64,000 bases of DNA from contig JAKLGA010000015.1 of assembly GCA_022710975.1 (NCBI GenBank), positions 124,001-188,000 on the forward strand. The letters are read 5' to 3'. The notes below the pieces were generated by a model. That model made no database searches and had not been told where the DNA came from. It was given only the letters and a program-made list of their open reading frames with translations. The DNA comes from Myxococcota bacterium. Its GTDB lineage: Bacteria > Myxococcota > B64-G9. Each line of letters begins with the position of its first letter. Position 1 is the first letter of the stretch. Of the stretch, positions 2,515 to 33,163 are shown piece by piece. A program made the translations under genes and the position numbers.

Positions 2515-3506
2515 ACACCTTCGGTCGGCTGCTGCGCGTGCACCTGCTCGGCGAGTCGCACGGGCCCGTGGTGGGCGTGCTCCTGGACGGCTGCCCGGCC
2601 GGGCTGCCGCTCGCGCCCGAGGATCTGGAGGCCGACCTGGCCCGACGGCGCGCGGGCGCGCCCGGCACCACCGCGCGGCGCGAGGCGGACCGGCCCCGCG
2701 TCCTGTCCGGCCTGCACCAGGGCCGCACCACCGGGGCGCCGCTGCTGATCGCCTTCGACAACGGCGACGTGGACTCCGCGGACTACGCCGGGCTCGAGCA
2801 CACCCCGCGGCCCGGCCACGCCGATCTGGCCGCCCGGCAGAAGTACGCCGGCTGCGCCGACCCGCGGGGCGGCGGGCACTTCTCCGGCCGGCTGACGGTA
2901 GGCCTGGTGGCGGCCGGCGTGCTGGCCAAGCGCCTGCTCGGCCCGGCGCGGGTGGAGGCGCGGCTGCTCGAGGCGGGCGGTCGGCCGGACGCCGAGGCGG
3001 CGGCGGCGGAGGCCGCGGCCGCGGGCGACTCCGCGGGCGGGCTGATCGAGTGCCGGGTGAGCGGGCTGCCCGCCGGCCTGGGCGAGCCGTTCTTCGATCC
3101 GGTCGAGGGGCTGCTGGCGCACGCGCTGTTCGCCCTGGGCGGCGTGCGGGGGATCGAGTTCGGGGCCGGCTTCGCCTCGGCGCGCATGCGCGGCAGCGAG
3201 TGCAACGATCCCATCCTCGACCCCGCCGGGCGCACGGCCACGAACCACGCTGGCGGAGTGAACGGCGGGCTCACCAACGGCAACCCGCTCGTCTTCCGCC
3301 TGGCGGTGAAGCCCACCTCCAGCATCGCGCTGCCCCAGCGGACGGTGGACGTGCGCTCCGGCCAGCTGGTCGAGCTGCGCGTCCCGGGCCGCCACGACGC
3401 GTGCCACGCGCTGCGCCTGCCTGTGGTGGTGGAGGCGGTCACCGCGCTGGTCCTGGCCGACCTCACCCTCGTCCAGCGCGGCCTGGCCCACGGGGCGTGG
3501 ACCTGA
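2511..3506 (+). CDS. aroC: Chorismate synthase
   Basis: Converts EPSP to chorismate using reduced FMN, completing the pathway begun by the two genes upstream. The GTG start at 2511 shares GTGA with the aroA stop and gives MNTFGRLLRVHLLGESHG, matching the family N-terminus. Flavin and substrate motifs RPGHADLAARQKY and RGGGHFSGRLT are present. This is the variant with HFSGR in place of the commoner SSARET. At 331 residues it is shorter than the roughly 360-residue enterobacterial enzyme. It is the last gene of the cluster; the next gene has its own promoter. Confidence 0.93.
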   Translation: MNTFGRLLRVHLLGESHGPVVGVLLDGCPAGLPLAPEDLEADLARRRAGAPGTTARREADRPRVLSGLHQGRTTGAPLLIAFDNGDVDSADYAGLEHTPRPGHADLAARQKYAGCADPRGGGHFSGRLTVGLVAAGVLAKRLLGPARVEARLLEAGGRPDAEAAAAEAAAAGDSAGGLIECRVSGLPAGLGEPFFDPVEGLLAHALFALGGVRGIEFGAGFASARMRGSECNDPILDPAGRTATNHAGGVNGGLTNGNPLVFRLAVKPTSSIALPQRTVDVRSGQLVELRVPGRHDACHALRLPVVVEAVTALVLADLTLVQRGLAHGAWT

Positions 3507-4096: not shown

Positions 4097-7000
4097 TCAG
4101 GCGGCGGGGGCGCAGGGTGGCGCGGCCTCGCGGGCGGTGCGGGCCTGCTCGCGATCGGCGGAGGCCACCATGCGCCGCATGGCGCGCAGGTAGTCCTCGG
4201 CGCGCTCCAGGTAGAAGGCCAGCGGCCTGGAGAAGTTCTTCGAGACCAGCCCGTCGACCAGGAGCTGGCTGATCTCGCGCTGGCGCTCCAGCACGGCCTG
4301 GGAGCGCAGGAAGATCTGCCGCTCCTCGCCGTCCATGCGCCTGAGCAGCCGCCGCAGCATGGAGCGCGCGCGCGGCTGGTACATCCAGAAGTAGAGCAGG
4401 TCGAGCGCGTTGAGGATGAGCCCCCGTTCCAGCTCCGCGGCGTCCGCCTTCACGGCGCGGATGAACTCCTTGGGGCTGGCCAGCAGGGCCAGCACGTCCT
4501 GGTCCGGGTAGAGCAGCTCCAGCTTGCCATGGCAGTCGAAGAGCTGCTGCAGCTTGGTGGTGTAGTCGCGCATGCGCTGGTCCAGGTTGACCAGCCGGTC
4601 GGCCGAGCCCTCGATGAAGCCGGCCACCATGTCGGAGGCGGCCTTGGAGATGATGGCCGCCCACTTCTGCAGCTCGGTGTCCACCGCGTCGCCTGGCGCG
4701 CCCTGCCACATGAACAGCGCGCGCAGGCCGGCGTTCAACCCGAAGGCGATGGGGATGGAGAGCACGGCGCGGAAGAAGTTGGCCACCACCGCGCTGCGCG
4801 GCAGGCCGCGGACGTAGTTGTGGGACGAGATGTAGGCGCCGTTGGCGATGGCCATGACCGAGTACAGCAGCAGCGGGCCGGTGTGGGTGGTGATGCCGAG
4901 GCCGCGGTCCATCAGCAGCGACTTGACCAGGTAGTCGAGCAGCGGCACGGAGAAGCCGGTGTACAGCAGCGAGTCGGCCACCCGGCCCCAGCTCACGTGG
5001 TGGTTCCAGCGCAGCAGCGGCGAGCGCCGCAGGCCGCCCCCGCCCAGCACCGACTGCAGGATGTTCCGCAGCCCGGTGATGCCGAACCAGATGAAGGCCC
5101 CCAGGTAGGCCAGCACCCACCAGTCCTTGGTCAGCGCGAAGGTCAGGAAGGCCGGGATGAACCCCAGCATGATCTTGAGGATCAGCAGCAGCTGCGTGTT
5201 CAGGTAGGCCGGCGAGGTGACCACCTGGCCGCCGGCCGGGCGCGGCGGCTCCAGGCTGAGCCCGTCGTGCGGATCCTCGCGCAGGCCGCCCAGGGTGGCC
5301 ACGTTGCCCAGGCCGCCGACGCGCGTCTGGACCGCCTCGATGGTCCACTCCTCGCTCTTCTCCAGGCCGAGGCCGCGCAGGCCGGGCAGGCGCCGGAGCG
5401 CGCGCAGCAGCGGGTGGTTGCGCGGGGACAGCGGCGAGGGCGCGGTGTAGGTCACCTGCAGGCGCGCCGTGGTCAGCACCGGCAGCACCTCGCGGGAGCG
5501 ATCGTCGGCCTGGACGATCTCGGCCTGGGCGCGCGGTGGCAGGGTGCTGGTCAGCGCCAGGCCCATGCCGTGGATGCTCGCGGAGCGGCCGGCCGAGTCG
5601 CTGCCCACGCGCGTGGACAGCGGCGTGCCCCGGTAGGCCTGCATCAGCGAGCCCACGTCGGCCAGGATGCGCTGCAGCTTCTCCACCCGCTCGGCCGAGT
5701 GCGGCCCGGCCTGCACGCGCGCGATCAGCCGGCGCACCAGGCGCTTCAACGCCACCACGTGGGCCTCGTTGAGCGCGTGGCGCAGCTCGTCGATCTCGGC
5801 GCAGCTCCTGGCCTTGCCGGCCGCCCAGTCCTTGAGGTTGAACACCTCCAGGTGGGTGATGCGGCCGCGGCAGTCGTACAGGATCTCGAGCACGTCCTCG
5901 GTGCTCAGATCGCTCAGGTTGAGCGTCAGGCGGTAGCCGGCCGGCAGCTTGTGGATGGCCTCGATCACCTCCGGCAGCGAGCGCCTGAGCTGCGCGGGCG
6001 TGTCGGGCGAGTCCGAGGGCACGTTCGGATCGGGCAGCTGGGGGTTGGCCGCCGGGCGCAGGTAGCGCTCCCAGATCGCCTGCGCGTCGAGCTCGCTCAT
6101 CAGGGCGACCTGGCGCTCGAGGTCGGTGCGTCGCTGGGGGTCGGCCTGGGCGTACTCGGCCCGCAGCGCGCGCACCCGGCCGCGCATGGCCTCCAGCAGG
6201 CGCCGCTGCAACAGCTCGGCCAGGTGCAGCAGCGAGGGCTGGCCGGCGCCCACCAGGGCCAGGAACGCCTCCTCGGTGATGGGCTCGAGCTCGAGCCCGA
6301 ACTGGTGGTTCAGCGACAGGCGGTGGCGGGTGTTGAACTCCTGCAGCACCCGCAGCACGTGGCGCTGGCGGTGCTCGGAGATGGCCTTGCCGTCCTCCAT
6401 GAAGGCGCGCACCGGCGGCTCCGCCAGGAACTCGAGGAAGTCCCGCGCGCCCAGGAAACCGCGCGGCACCCAGATCACCTTGGCGTAGCCCTCGCGGAAG
6501 CGCCCCGGCACCTCGATGCCGATGCGCACCGTGACCCCCATGATCTCGGCCGCCTCCATGAGCTCCGCGGCCACCTCGTCGCGCACGTGGTGGTAGTAGA
6601 CCACCTGCAGGAAGCGGATGCCCTTGATCCAGGCGTCCAGGATCATGTGGGTGGGGGACTTGCGCCCCTTCGTGTTGGCGTCGTGCACGTGGTCGTCGAA
6701 GGCCACCTGGTTCCAGGCCTCGGGCATCTCCAGCAGGTGGTAGCGCCTGAGCAGGCGGCGGATGAGCCGGGGGCGGCCCGAGGCGGCGGCGTGGAAGTCG
6801 TGGGCCAGCTCGAGCTGGCGCTGCGGGTCGCCAGCCGAGCGCAGCAGGTCCTTCACGATCGACAGCAGCACCCGGGCGGTGTTGAGCCTGAGGTGGCTCG
6901 AGGCCGCGTGGATGACCTCGTCCCGCAGCGAGCGCAGCGCGGCCAGGCGCTCGCTGGCCTTGCCCGCCTCCAGGGAGTCGAGCAGCGCCAGCGCCGCGTG

Positions 7001-7240
7001 GGCGATGCGCACGTCGCTGGCCGCGGCCAGCTCCTTCACCCCGTGGGGGTGCAGGTAGGGATCGACCAGGCGCCGGAGGGAGCGCGAGGGCTTGTCGCGG
7101 TTCTGCAGCTCGCGCACGGTCTCCAGCAGCGCGTAGTCGCGCGGATCGAAGTACAGGCGTCCGCGCCGGGCGGGCAGGGCGTGGCCGTTCTGCCGACCGG
7201 GGTCGGTCACGTCGTCGTCGAAGTGCGAGTCCACGTGCAT
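4097..7240 (-). CDS. Large protein with PHP-like N-terminal motifs and a C-terminal membrane region
   Basis: I do not recognise this 1047-residue family. Residues 1-680 look soluble; about 682-840 hold four or five hydrophobic segments; the last 200 residues are charged and helical. Residues 182-245 resemble the start of a PHP phosphoesterase domain: a DDHVH cluster with HxH at 184/186, then KSPTHMILDAWIKGI, a YYHH (217-218) where PHP proteins have TDH, and GIEV (241-244) where they have the GxE ligand. The spacing fits, but the later PHP motifs are not obvious. That suggests a divergent or degenerate metal-dependent hydrolase domain tied to a membrane, and is inference. It is transcribed away from the aminotransferase operon, with its own promoter at 7280-7307, and has only a weak Shine-Dalgarno. 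Confidence 0.6.
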   Translation of the reverse strand: MHVDSHFDDDVTDPGRQNGHALPARRGRLYFDPRDYALLETVRELQNRDKPSRSLRRLVDPYLHPHGVKELAAASDVRIAHAALALLDSLEAGKASERLAALRSLRDEVIHAASSHLRLNTARVLLSIVKDLLRSAGDPQRQLELAHDFHAAASGRPRLIRRLLRRYHLLEMPEAWNQVAFDDHVHDANTKGRKSPTHMILDAWIKGIRFLQVVYYHHVRDEVAAELMEAAEIMGVTVRIGIEVPGRFREGYAKVIWVPRGFLGARDFLEFLAEPPVRAFMEDGKAISEHRQRHVLRVLQEFNTRHRLSLNHQFGLELEPITEEAFLALVGAGQPSLLHLAELLQRRLLEAMRGRVRALRAEYAQADPQRRTDLERQVALMSELDAQAIWERYLRPAANPQLPDPNVPSDSPDTPAQLRRSLPEVIEAIHKLPAGYRLTLNLSDLSTEDVLEILYDCRGRITHLEVFNLKDWAAGKARSCAEIDELRHALNEAHVVALKRLVRRLIARVQAGPHSAERVEKLQRILADVGSLMQAYRGTPLSTRVGSDSAGRSASIHGMGLALTSTLPPRAQAEIVQADDRSREVLPVLTTARLQVTYTAPSPLSPRNHPLLRALRRLPGLRGLGLEKSEEWTIEAVQTRVGGLGNVATLGGLREDPHDGLSLEPPRPAGGQVVTSPAYLNTQLLLILKIMLGFIPAFLTFALTKDWWVLAYLGAFIWFGITGLRNILQSVLGGGGLRRSPLLRWNHHVSWGRVADSLLYTGFSVPLLDYLVKSLLMDRGLGITTHTGPLLLYSVMAIANGAYISSHNYVRGLPRSAVVANFFRAVLSIPIAFGLNAGLRALFMWQGAPGDAVDTELQKWAAIISKAASDMVAGFIEGSADRLVNLDQRMRDYTTKLQQLFDCHGKLELLYPDQDVLALLASPKEFIRAVKADAAELERGLILNALDLLYFWMYQPRARSMLRRLLRRMDGEERQIFLRSQAVLERQREISQLLVDGLVSKNFSRPLAFYLERAEDYLRAMRRMVASADREQARTAREAAPPCAPAA

Positions 7241-26292: not shown

Positions 26293-29114
<2,822 letters not shown>

Positions 29115-29157
29115 CCCAGATCTTGGTCCTGTCTCGAAAGGCAACGGAGCATCAAGG

Positions 29158-30240
29158 ATGACAGCAGTCAGACCTAGGATTGAGCGTGTCGTGGGGATAC
29201 TTCTGATGGTCTGCTGCTTGGTAGGCTGCACGCCTAGGAACGAGAACGCAGGTGATGCAGTACTTTCCGAGAAGCACGCTGCAGGTATGAATTGGTCTGC
29301 GCAGAATAGTGTAACTTTGATCAGTATTGAAGGTATCAGAAGTGTACGACTCGAATACAAGGATAGCGGGGAACTGTGGGCCGATGGATTCGCACTCGGG
29401 AACCTGGAAGAGAAGAAGAGGATTGAAAGGGAAATATCAGAACGAAAGATGTCGTTAGGCGCTCTTGGCTACAGTGAACCCACAGAAGGCATCCCCACAG
29501 GAGCGGTCTCTCTGTGCGGCATTTTTATCCATCCGCCATTTCAAGTGGAGTGCCGCATATGTGAAATGGTTGGAACTCCAGGAAGGTCATTGATCATAAA
29601 CGGGGTAGTTGCATCAACCACGTGCCCCTCCGAAGAGAAGTGTGCCGCAGGAGCAGAGACCAAGGCGAATGGGAGATACGAGAATCATCAAGAAGATAGA
29701 ACATGCTTCGACTTGTTTCATGCTAGGCTGAAAGAAGCAGAACAGGCAGTTGCGCAGCTTCCGGTTGAGGCGGACGAATCAAGCGTGCTTGGGGTAGTTC
29801 GTCAAGCGATTGGTGACACGTCGGCCCTTACTTGCGTGAAGAGCATTACAGTTGCTTATACTCCAGAGAACGACAGCAACGACAGCGATGTCACTATCGG
29901 GTACCTGCATACTTCTCCGAACGGCGTGGATATTCGTAGCTATGTCATCTATGATACTTCGCGCACGATCAGTAAGAAACTTGCGAAGAAAACCTCTGTT
30001 GATCCCGAACGACAAGCCATTGAGAAGTGCGAGAGGGAGAAAGAGCTTGTCATTAGTAGTCTTCGGAGTGGATGGTTTGTGCAAGCGAGCGGAGACCGGT
30101 TGAGTCCGTCGACTTCGACAAGCGAGAAAGTTGCGCAGATACATGCGATTCTTGGCACAAACTACGATGTGCGCTTGTTGGGGAGGCTATTGGTGTTGTA
30201 TGGCGCCATCTGCCCAGAATGCTATCTTGCAAATAGGTAA
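29158..30240 (+). CDS. Unknown lipoprotein A of the low-GC island
   Basis: No recognised family. The 360-residue protein starts with a lipoprotein signal (LVGC, C24). The mature chain is mixed alpha/beta with several cysteines (VSLCGIF, VECRICEM, STTCPSEEKC, DRTCFD, CPEC), a helix about 180-200 and a C-terminal helical part. Base composition and codon use (AGA, ATA, TTA, GTA common) differ sharply from uvrA just upstream, pointing to recent transfer. It shows a weak but collinear resemblance to lipoprotein B at 30368: an ING segment, a following long helix, and RSY/F.I....KK. ATG 29158 has GGAG eight bases before it. I cannot assign a function; an envelope-anchored inhibitor, immunity or surface protein would be guesses. 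Confidence 0.7.
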   Translation: MTAVRPRIERVVGILLMVCCLVGCTPRNENAGDAVLSEKHAAGMNWSAQNSVTLISIEGIRSVRLEYKDSGELWADGFALGNLEEKKRIEREISERKMSLGALGYSEPTEGIPTGAVSLCGIFIHPPFQVECRICEMVGTPGRSLIINGVVASTTCPSEEKCAAGAETKANGRYENHQEDRTCFDLFHARLKEAEQAVAQLPVEADESSVLGVVRQAIGDTSALTCVKSITVAYTPENDSNDSDVTIGYLHTSPNGVDIRSYVIYDTSRTISKKLAKKTSVDPERQAIEKCEREKELVISSLRSGWFVQASGDRLSPSTSTSEKVAQIHAILGTNYDVRLLGRLLVLYGAICPECYLANR

Positions 30241-30259
30241 TTGTCACGGGAAGTACTCT

Positions 30260-30313
30260 ATGAAAACTCACTGGGTCCTTTGGCTGCTTGTCCTTGCCTG
30301 CGCTGTTGCCTGA
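30260..30313 (+). pseudogene. 17-codon stub: lipoprotein signal peptide ending in a stop
   Basis: ATG 30260 opens MKTHWVLWLLVLACAVA followed directly by TGA. This is a near-perfect lipoprotein signal peptide (LVLAC) with nothing behind it, and GGGAAG stands shortly before the ATG. It lies between the two island lipoproteins. It may be the head of a lost third gene or a real short leader peptide; I favour a remnant. Confidence 0.45.
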
Positions 30314-30367
30314 CCCGCTCGGTGCCATGGGTTGGTGGAAACGGTCGGGACAAGGCGGGTGGACAAT

Positions 30368-31510
30368 ATGTTGCCAATTGTAAGATATCTGTCTTTGGCA
30401 TTCTTGTGTGCCATTCTGAGCTGTGGAAATGCCCGCGATGCTGCTCAGGCGGATGATCCACTCAAGAACGTCCTTCTGAGGCATGGTGTTGCGCCTGGCG
30501 TGGCTGATGCCCTAGCCCAAATGCTTCAAAGGTTCGATGTTATCGCAGACGAGGGGGGCAGACTGTTTCTGCGAAGTGCCCATCTAACCGGCACGAACAA
30601 GGTCAATCTAGAATATCCCGTGGAGGTTATCATGGGAACCTCTGCGAATTCTGATGCCGTCTTTCTCAGGAGAGCAGACGGGAAAGATATTGCATCGCCG
30701 CCAAAGGAGTTGCCCCCATCCTTTCCAGCTGAGCTGGTGGAATATGCGATCGATATTCATCCGCTATCTATTGCCGACAAGTACTCTATTCCATATGGAA
30801 TCATCTTTGCCTATGGATATAAGATTGTCGCGCCAATCAACCTTCAGGTGGTCGTATTCGGGGACCTCTCGGGAAAACTGTTCATAAATGGTATTTCTCC
30901 GGTTGTTTCCGGACGACTCAATGGTGTGACCTCTGGAATATCGCGCCATGACCTTGCAGAACATTTCGATCAAATGGCAAAGGCGATCGAATCCGTGGCT
31001 TTGCTCCTCAGCAGGTCGATCGGCCTATGTGGAGCTCTGGAAGTAACGGTTGGCAGCCAAGTTAAAACAAACAATCTGCGAATGCTTAGATTGGCTGACT
31101 GCAATGGGCAATGTGCAAGAATAGATTATCAATACTTGACGAACAATCAGCTGTTCATCGCCAATCACAATCCAGCGTATTCATTGCTGGATAGTGGCGT
31201 CAGAAGCTTCAATATCTGCATCCCAGAAATCAAGAAGAAGAGTGTTGAAGATGGCGAGAAAGATATCAACAATGCGCTTCTCCTTGCGAAAACCATCCAG
31301 GACTCACTGGTGCAGGATCGAGTGCCGGTGTTCCTGGGCGGATTCATGGCTGCAGGTATCTCAAGGGAGAAATTTGAGAATCTCATGCAGCGCTGCAAGC
31401 GAGGCCTTCAGGCATTCGAGGCGCCGCTGGAAGGGTTGAACCTTCCTGAATCTGCCGTTCTCGAAATCAAGGCCAATTGCACCAGAATTCTTGATGTAGA
31501 CCGCCCATGA
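30368..31510 (+). CDS. Unknown lipoprotein B of the low-GC island
   Basis: No recognised family; 380 residues. From ATG 30368 the first residues MLPIVRYLSLAFLCAILSC form a lipoprotein signal (C19); the frame could start earlier at a TTG (30332) but this would bury the signal, so I chose ATG. The mature chain has helices about 28-45 and 190-215, a beta-rich middle (YEYPVEVIMG-like, LQVVVFGDLSGKLFINGIS), and cysteine pairs CGAL and DCNGQC. Low GC like its neighbour. Collinear similarity to lipoprotein A suggests ancient duplication. No transport or enzyme motif is seen. Confidence 0.68.
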   Translation: MLPIVRYLSLAFLCAILSCGNARDAAQADDPLKNVLLRHGVAPGVADALAQMLQRFDVIADEGGRLFLRSAHLTGTNKVNLEYPVEVIMGTSANSDAVFLRRADGKDIASPPKELPPSFPAELVEYAIDIHPLSIADKYSIPYGIIFAYGYKIVAPINLQVVVFGDLSGKLFINGISPVVSGRLNGVTSGISRHDLAEHFDQMAKAIESVALLLSRSIGLCGALEVTVGSQVKTNNLRMLRLADCNGQCARIDYQYLTNNQLFIANHNPAYSLLDSGVRSFNICIPEIKKKSVEDGEKDINNALLLAKTIQDSLVQDRVPVFLGGFMAAGISREKFENLMQRCKRGLQAFEAPLEGLNLPESAVLEIKANCTRILDVDRP

Positions 31511-31573
31511 AAAGAGGTATTTACGCGCCATGACTGACCGGCCGGGCACCTTGAATTAAACCGGAGCAGGCAT

Positions 31574-33163
31574 TTGGGAGCAGAGCCGTTGCAGCGCTGG
31601 CAGATCGCGTCCTCGGCCACCTGCCTGGTGCTCGCGCTCCTGGCCGGAGGCTGGCGCGCCTGGCAGGCGCGGCGGGAGCCGGACCGCGGGCGACCTGGGC
31701 GGTTGGAGCTGGCCGGGCTCGGCGCGCTCTTCCTGGGGGCCTGGCTCCTGCGCGCGCTCCTCTCGCCCCACACCCTGCTCCACGAGAACGCCCACGGCTA
31801 CGAGCTGCTCCAGGGGGCCTTCTCCCTCGAGGGGTACTTCTGGCACGGGGCCGGCTACTACACCTTCTTCCACGGGCTGACCTGGCTCCTGGGCGACTCG
31901 CCGGCGGTCGTGTTCCACGGCAACGCCGTCCTGGGCGGGTGCGCGGCGGTGCTGGTGTGGGCCGTGGGCCGGAGGCTGTTCGGCCCCGGAGCGGCCGCCT
32001 GGCTGGCGGCCCTGGCCTGGGCGGCCTGGCCCGCGGCGCTCCGGGAGGGCGGCAGCGAGAGCATGCTGCCGCTCGGGGTGTGCGCCGGGCTGCTCGGGCT
32101 GTGGGCCTGGCTGGACGGCTTCCAGGCGGGTGGCCGGCCGAGCTCGCTCCTGCTGGCGGCCGCGGCGCTGGCCTTCACCGCCCAGGTGCGGCCTGAGCTC
32201 GCGCTCTGGCTGGCGCTCCCGCCGCTCGGGCTGGCGGCCTGCCCCGGGTGGCGCGTCGCGCTCCGCCGGCCCGCGCTCTGGGCCGCCCTGGTCGCGCTGG
32301 GGCTGCTCCTCGCCCCCGGGTTGGTGTTCCGCCTCCAGGACCTGTCCTCGTCCGGCCTGCCCGGCTACCTGGAGCTCGGGCCCGGGCGCTTCCTCGCGGC
32401 GCTCGTGTCCCCGGAGCACCTGCTGCTCCGGCCGGGCTGGACCCCCGCGGCCGTGTGGGTGCTCCTGCCGCTCGGGCTGTGGGCCGGGCTCCGGCGGGCG
32501 CCCCGGGCGCTGCCCCTGCTGGTCGGCGGCACCCTGGCGCTCGCCTGGATCGGCCTGGCGGCCCGGGGCGGCCTGGCCACCCAGGTGCGCCTGCAGCAGC
32601 CCGTGCTGCCGCTGCTCGCCCTGCTGGTGGGCCTGGGTGGCGCCTGGCTGGCCGGGCAGGCGCCGGCGCGCGGCCGGGCCGCCGCGGCCTTCGCGCTGGG
32701 CCTCGCCCTGCTCGCGACCGGGCTCGCGCGCGCCCCCCGGATCCGCGCGCTGGCCACGGCGCAGCACGAGTTCGCCTTCCAGGAGCTCGTCCTGCCCGCG
32801 CTGCCCCCGGGCTGCGGCCTGGTCATGCCCGATCGCTTCATGGCGGACCGGGTGATCTCCACCGAGCTGGCCACCTGGCGGCTCCGCGGCCGGCCGCTCG
32901 CGGAGCTCACGCCGTTCCTGGCGGACCCCCGGGCGGCGGCCGGGGCGCCCTGCTGGGTGCTCTACCGGGGGCTCACCTGCCACCTGTTCACCCACGCGGA
33001 GAGCCCGCCGGCGGACGGGCTGCGGCCGGAGTGCCGGGCCCCCGAGGCGCGTTTCCGGCTCCGGCCGATCTTCGAGCAGACCCTGCCGGCCGTCCCCTAC
33101 GACTACCTGCGGCTGCCCGCCCCCGAGGTGCGCCTGGGGCTCTACCGGCTGGTCCCGCGCTGA
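31574..33163 (+). CDS. Polytopic membrane protein, GT-C glycosyltransferase-like
   Basis: A 529-residue inner-membrane protein with about 10-12 hydrophobic segments and the layout of GT-C enzymes (PMT/ArnT, GT39/GT83): a first long periplasmic loop holding an acidic motif (LLHENAHGYELLQGAF, residues about 70-85) after the first two helices, many helices, then a soluble C-terminal part of about 130 residues. These transfer sugars from lipid carriers to proteins or lipids outside the membrane. The usual DE/DD motif is not clear; E72 or E79 might act. The start is a TTG at 31574 with GGAGCAGG before it. Composition returns to high GC, so this marks the island's right edge. Confidence 0.65.
   Translation: MGAEPLQRWQIASSATCLVLALLAGGWRAWQARREPDRGRPGRLELAGLGALFLGAWLLRALLSPHTLLHENAHGYELLQGAFSLEGYFWHGAGYYTFFHGLTWLLGDSPAVVFHGNAVLGGCAAVLVWAVGRRLFGPGAAAWLAALAWAAWPAALREGGSESMLPLGVCAGLLGLWAWLDGFQAGGRPSSLLLAAAALAFTAQVRPELALWLALPPLGLAACPGWRVALRRPALWAALVALGLLLAPGLVFRLQDLSSSGLPGYLELGPGRFLAALVSPEHLLLRPGWTPAAVWVLLPLGLWAGLRRAPRALPLLVGGTLALAWIGLAARGGLATQVRLQQPVLPLLALLVGLGGAWLAGQAPARGRAAAAFALGLALLATGLARAPRIRALATAQHEFAFQELVLPALPPGCGLVMPDRFMADRVISTELATWRLRGRPLAELTPFLADPRAAAGAPCWVLYRGLTCHLFTHAESPPADGLRPECRAPEARFRLRPIFEQTLPAVPYDYLRLPAPEVRLGLYRLVPR

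Follow-up and report, generated by a model that had tools for sequence, protein, structure and literature searches.

The open reading frame at positions 4097–7240 (minus strand) of the window, by which we mean the whole 64,000-nucleotide stretch of a Myxococcota contig that was analysed, raises the question of what a protein that joins PHP-like metal-site motifs to a block of membrane helices could do. An earlier note, written from the letters and their translations, read it as a membrane-tethered, divergent PHP phosphoesterase with a possible regulatory or nucleotide-related function. The frame encodes 1047 residues and is monocistronic here. On comparative sequence grounds it is a genuine gene and not a chance frame, because hundreds of genomes encode full-length relatives that are about 50% identical to it. 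All of its features given below lie on the minus strand.

A family that joins PHP and membrane domains

A scan with one genome per species found relatives encoded on 248 stretches. The best 80 of these are full-length or almost full-length and share 46–55% identity with the window protein; most come from Desulfobacterota, and one is from candidate division KSB3. The conservation counts given here come from an alignment of 81 full-length sequences. The family is present in 10 of about 195 genomes of the window's own phylum and in 20 of 198 genomes of the Desulfosarcina phylum sample. Four genomes (G339, G226, G259 and G315) hold two or three copies each, and at one locus (L011) a second member, from about position 3415 onward, is adjacent to the first (29 bp) and convergent with it. 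Near protein position 355, two other members (L088 and L089, genomes G133 and G134) are longer by an additional insertion of several tens of residues. Scans of the window protein against Pfam and NCBIfam returned chance matches only, none above cut-off, and the NCBIfam models NF041577, NF047791 and NF041661 did not match it. Thirty-five members scanned against Pfam also gave chance matches only. Even with E as high as 10, the PHP model PF02811 matched none of these members nor the window protein, the family being too divergent for it. A PDB sequence search with the main family likewise gave chance matches only, no relatives were found in plasmid and phage collections, and the PADLOC models for anti-phage defence proteins did not match. 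A search of open-licence papers turned up no membrane-fused PHP family. The earlier note knew of no described family with this architecture, and as far as Pfam, NCBIfam and this literature go, the bacterial protein family joining a degenerate PHP domain to a membrane domain is undescribed.

The soluble part of the protein is predicted to carry a PHP (beta/alpha)7 barrel. In an AlphaFold2 model built on the 81-sequence alignment (pLDDT 85.1, pTM 0.83), an N-terminal all-helical domain (residues 24–166; positions 6743–7171) precedes a variant PHP barrel (residues 176–640; positions 5321–6715), which the fold search and profile comparison also identify. The seven barrel strands lie at residues 180–186, 210–216, 237–248, 251–260, 435–441, 463–468 and 542–546, and a large helical insertion between strands 4 and 5 (residues 265–430; positions 5951–6448) contains an invariant histidine, H339, in the motif 'GQ.S..HL'. 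The 26 top-ranked entries in VIA-align are all PHP proteins, led by 3o0f (Z 19.5, rmsd 2.9 over 256 residues) and including 2yb1 (Z 18.2), RNase AM 9etk (Z 18.0) and Pol III alpha (Z around 12), and the first unrelated row stands at Z 6.3. The four Foldseek matches under E 0.001 are also all PHP proteins. AlphaFold, which had been named earlier as a way to check the fold, therefore returns a PHP barrel, and the proposed fusion of a divergent PHP domain to a membrane domain is borne out at the level of the predicted model.

RNase AM (YciV/RNM) and 3′,5′-nucleoside bisphosphate phosphatase (9etk, 7ug9, 2yb1, 3o0f) have the same seven-stranded barrel (Z 18–19.5), and they share with the family the insertion between strands 4 and 5 and the HxH, GxE and GSD motifs; their 'GRPHIA' corresponds to the H339 motif. 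These PHP proteins are soluble, of about 290 residues and with a complete ligand set, whereas the family has five of nine ligands replaced, a much larger insertion, and N-terminal, membrane and C-terminal domains in addition.

The hydrophobic helices noticed earlier downstream of the PHP-like motifs occupy residues 682–880. Predicted models and conservation together define a membrane domain (positions 4601–5197) of six predicted helices (682–704, 708–734, 751–780, 789–811, 815–845 and 850–880), of which the first and fifth are the most hydrophobic and the fourth and sixth only moderately so. All six carry invariant polar or charged residues; D769, K773, H807, N808, R811, R824, K866, D870 and E877 are invariant in the domain, and its mean column identity is 76%. 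It is followed by a helical C-terminal domain, possibly HEAT-like (residues 881–1040; positions 4121–4600). A separate model of residues 672–1030 (pLDDT 85.6) had no Foldseek match among PDB structures at E ≤ 0.001, an absence that does not show a new fold, and its best VIA match, to WapL at Z 7.5, falls on the C-terminal helices only. A relationship of the membrane domain to Gcr/SpecificRecomb (PF10136) was rejected, the hhalign P of 0.86 being no better than that of shuffled controls. Ten of about 195 genomes in the window's phylum encode the membrane domain, and these same ten encode the PHP core. Both lie in one reading frame in nine of them; the tenth (G027) has the gene divided between two contigs. 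The lack of an apparent signal peptide, the even number of helices and the basic residues in the loop after helix 2 would together place the PHP domain and the C-terminus on the cytoplasmic side.

Ancestry of the barrel and fate of its metal ligands

Profile–profile comparison by hhalign aligns residues 165–300 to PHP proteins of the same phylum with P about 1e-5 and with HxH and GxE in register, and reversed and column-shuffled controls of this comparison gave no signal. Since the controls are null and the fold agrees, the likeness to PHP proteins goes beyond chance. The C-terminal half of the PHP core (residues 418–575) alone was not significant against PHP profiles, so that the mapping of ligand positions 7–9 rests on barrel topology, the GSD motif and a distant subfamily. 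This subfamily comprises a protein from the window's phylum (L202:7046–9970) and one from the Desulfosarcina phylum (L232:8196–11057), which are 40% identical to each other and have the PHP, membrane and C-terminal parts of the main family in the same layout. A profile of the two picks up proteins of about 300 residues in dozens of genomes. Seven that were fetched match it with E from 2e-10 to 5e-8, all from motif I to strand 4 and three with further ordered blocks at the 'GRPHIA' helix and/or the 'AHP' strand; three of these proteins were tested against Pfam, and all are PF02811 (PHP). Both distant members also match NF041661 and NF041577 directly, at scores far below cut-off (20–24 bits versus 400–500). 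The best of these weak matches (E 2e-5; 24 bits against a cut-off of 500) is to NF041661, phosphoribosyl 1,2-cyclic phosphate 1,2-diphosphodiesterase (cyclic phosphate dihydrolase), a soluble enzyme of phosphorus metabolism with full metal sites. The distant subfamily keeps histidine at position 6 ('RQHF', 'RKHF') and at position 7 ('IHP', 'NHP'), and the barrel thus descends from a metal-binding PHP domain. We place the distant subfamily, as an intermediate, between ordinary PHP enzymes and the main family.

Three-metal PHP domains use nine ligands with the consensus H, H, D/H, H, E, H, C/H, D/N, H (PMC3666897), and the full set of the catalytic trinuclear centre (PMC3666897, Table 1) is absent in the main family. 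Four positions are kept, namely 1 (H184, 81/81), 2 (H186, 81/81), 5 (E243, 75/81) and 8 (D548, 77/81), and five are replaced, by K191 at 3 (79/81), Y216 at 4 (81/81), K254 at 6, N441 at 7 (71/81) and A550 at 9. The 'HVH' that was first taken for a metal-site motif is indeed present at 184–186, within motif I (D182-DHVHDANTKGRK-194; positions 6659–6697), where D182, D187, G192, R193 and K194 are as invariant as the two histidines, predicted metal ligands, and where K191-G-R-K forms a putative anion-binding stretch in place of the PHP 'SDG'. The 'GIEV' at 241–244 is equally real and contains PHP motif III, G241-I-E243 (positions 6512–6520), with G241 in 81/81 and with E243 at the place of the ligand that bridges metals in canonical PHP domains. 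N441 (positions 5918–5920) occupies the place of the 'AHP' histidine and is H in the distant subfamily, and D548, in G546-SDSAG-551 (positions 5588–5605), matches the C-terminal PHP ligand of 'GSDxH'. Residue 550, where histidine has been replaced, is A in the window protein and T in most relatives. The ligand set first proposed, H184, H186, H218 and E243, stands in three of its members, but H218 has to be withdrawn and D548 had been missed. The 'YYHH' from which H218 was taken is present, at 215–218 and not at 217–218; residue 218 is H in only 10/81 and otherwise mostly F or Y, which rules it out as a metal ligand, and residue 217, which matches the position after the 'TDH' histidine, is N in 77/81. 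The equivalent of that histidine is the invariant Y216, the distant profile aligned to 3e0f placing 'AYYD' under 'ADHD'.

On the model of characterized PHP sites, the four retained residues, H184, H186, E243 and D548, would form one metal site, and their places on the barrel strands suggest that they converge in space. In YcdX, the HxH pair binds the same metal as the PHP aspartate, which is Zn2 in DnaE1. In the DnaE1 of M. tuberculosis, Zn1 and Zn2 share the glutamate as a bridging ligand, and the aspartate is a Zn2 ligand that also activates the water (PMC5636811). In 6/81 members E243 has given way to S or Q, and in 4/81 D548 has given way to G; HxH is intact in all of these. Serine replaces E243 in five members with an intact motif I (L002, L004, L010, L013 and L008); two of them, L002 and L004, belong to a single genome bin, so that paralogues coexist. 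These losses indicate that metal binding may be dispensable, and because of them we do not claim catalysis, which the replacement of five of nine ligands also makes uncertain. PHP catalysis normally uses at least a metal pair.

A close parallel for the ligand loss is the variant PHP domain of E. coli DNA polymerase III alpha, which, as in the family, keeps the barrel, has lost five of nine ligands and carries positive side chains at some ligand positions (PMC3666897). The replaced positions are 1, 4, 5, 7 and 9 in Pol III alpha but 3, 4, 6, 7 and 9 in the family, and the one PHP domain is attached to a polymerase, the other to a membrane domain. The variant PHP of Pol III alpha has been considered structural, and variant PHP domains have been called inactive (PMC3666897), yet pyrophosphatase activity has been reported for that of E. 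coli Pol III (PMC4822814), so that the residue losses are compatible with either state.

Gene neighbourhoods

No neighbour is conserved in all members, and most relatives, the window gene included, lack glycerol-phosphate or phosphate genes nearby. In several members, a minority, the genomic partners are GDPD with the Glp/Ugp system or PiT-DUF47 phosphate uptake, proteins that have no homology to the family and are linked to it by association only. In L012, the gene is followed on one strand by GDPD, GlpA, GlpB and GlpC; GDPD is also a neighbour in L003 and L006. UgpBAEC lies upstream in the KSB3 genome (L016), and Ugp genes are convergent with the family gene in L001, L031, L211 and L212. DUF47 lies upstream and the glycerol kinase gene GlpK downstream in L004, and PiT-DUF47 is upstream in L030. 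In the distant subfamily, GDPD directly abuts the gene of L232 and PiT-DUF47 follows that of L202. Glycerol-phosphate/phosphate genes occur in 16 of 109 regions versus none of 40 control stretches from the relatives' genomes (Fisher p 0.005), a value to be read with the facts that the categories were chosen after part of the same loci had been viewed, that the 109 regions are not independent, some sharing one ancestral arrangement, and that one of the 16 (L054, weakly GlpC-like) is doubtful. Three regions fetched later (L202, L232 and L317) are further instances outside those used to choose the categories. The neighbourhoods examined showed no sign of an RNA or nucleotide theme; they suggest instead a role in glycerol-3-phosphate and phosphate metabolism, and the nucleotide-related function first considered is not supported.

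Other contexts were seen as well. In a Desulfosarcina-like group (L037, L048 and L055, also L034 and L052), small lipoprotein-like genes flank the family gene, with the sequences 'CTHKPYHP...WTIDHEACE' and 'GCSGVQVNQDYDPATDF', a local conserved context. In the window, the gene stands alone between nuclease-like and aminotransferase-like genes; positions 3–1274 form a single frame that combines shikimate dehydrogenase-like with shikimate kinase-like sequence, and AroA- and AroC-like frames come next (all read by eye). The G+C content of positions 28001–32000 is 0.60 versus about 0.73 elsewhere, and this segment was possibly acquired.

Proposed function and alternatives

From the predicted fold, the homology, the ligand replacement, the fixed architecture and the gene neighbourhood, we infer, with confidence that falls a little short of even, an inner-membrane protein in which a variant PHP barrel would face the cytoplasm, followed by the six-helix membrane domain and the helical C-terminal domain. 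The barrel would derive from the RNase AM/nucleoside-bisphosphate-phosphatase/cyclic-phosphate-dihydrolase branch. Two metal sites of the trinuclear centre would have been lost and the ligands of one (H184, H186, E243 and D548) kept, with the conserved K191, R193 and K194 standing where the 'SDG' ligand was. Such a protein would most likely bind one divalent metal, together with a phosphate ester, at the surface of the membrane. It would act in the assimilation of glycerol-3-phosphate, glycerophosphodiesters and phosphate, the likeliest activity being that of a one-metal phosphoesterase.

The loss of five ligands, and the natural loss of E243 or D548 in members with HxH intact, would also suit a PHP barrel that does not hydrolyse anything. 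We consider it possible, though not probable, that the barrel is a receptor for a phosphorylated metabolite (glycerol-3-phosphate, a glycerophosphodiester, phosphate or a lipid head group) and acts as a gate or regulator of the membrane domain to which it is fused, or of the Ugp and PiT-DUF47 transporters encoded next to it. The invariant basic, K/R-rich motif I, the many invariant polar residues inside the membrane helices and the presence of transporters and the PhoU-like DUF47 among the neighbours are consistent with a receptor, for which the structural role ascribed to the Pol III alpha variant PHP (PMC3666897) is a precedent. However, over 90% of members retain E243 and D548, a degree of conservation that seems higher than a site for binding alone would call for, and the pyrophosphatase activity reported for the same E. 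coli domain (PMC4822814) also argues against a purely sensory barrel. The best-supported reading is a membrane protein with a variant PHP domain that either processes or senses a phosphoester in glycerol-phosphate/phosphate assimilation; between the two we lean slightly toward a one-metal phosphoesterase over a pure sensor. The conservation of the membrane domain, its invariant residues and its strict co-occurrence with the PHP domain would fit a membrane domain that is itself an enzyme or transporter for phospholipids or glycerophosphate, the PHP domain processing its product or substrate; this we regard as unlikely, since the domain has no fold or sequence match to a known activity and the invariant residues could be structural. 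An enzyme tethered to the membrane that processes nucleotides or RNA in the manner of RNase AM or 3′,5′-nucleoside bisphosphate phosphatase is very unlikely, for although these enzymes are the closest folds and the distant subfamily weakly matches NF041577, their metal pair is not conserved in the main family, the scores lie far below the equivalog cut-offs and the neighbourhoods examined show no such theme.

Turning to the family as a whole, a protein of about 1000 residues conserved at about 50% identity likely matters to its hosts, and this family, unmatched in Pfam and NCBIfam, is spread across Desulfobacterota and patchily elsewhere. It places a PHP barrel in a membrane-embedded architecture. 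Within the one family the metal ligands are lost by degrees, the distant branch keeping positions 6 and 7 and the main branch not, which makes the family a natural series in which to study the function of a PHP site whose metal cluster is gone. The glycerol-phosphate and phosphate gene neighbours of the relatives are new here and are the first testable clue to the role, and since the family now has a predicted fold, predictions for individual residues and a metabolic setting, it is directly testable. More tentatively still, we suggest that the family consists of membrane enzymes or sensors whose PHP barrel once held several metals, now has a phosphoester site with one metal or none, and was coupled to a new type of six-helix membrane domain; it may link glycerol-phosphate or phospholipid turnover to phosphate uptake in anaerobic bacteria.
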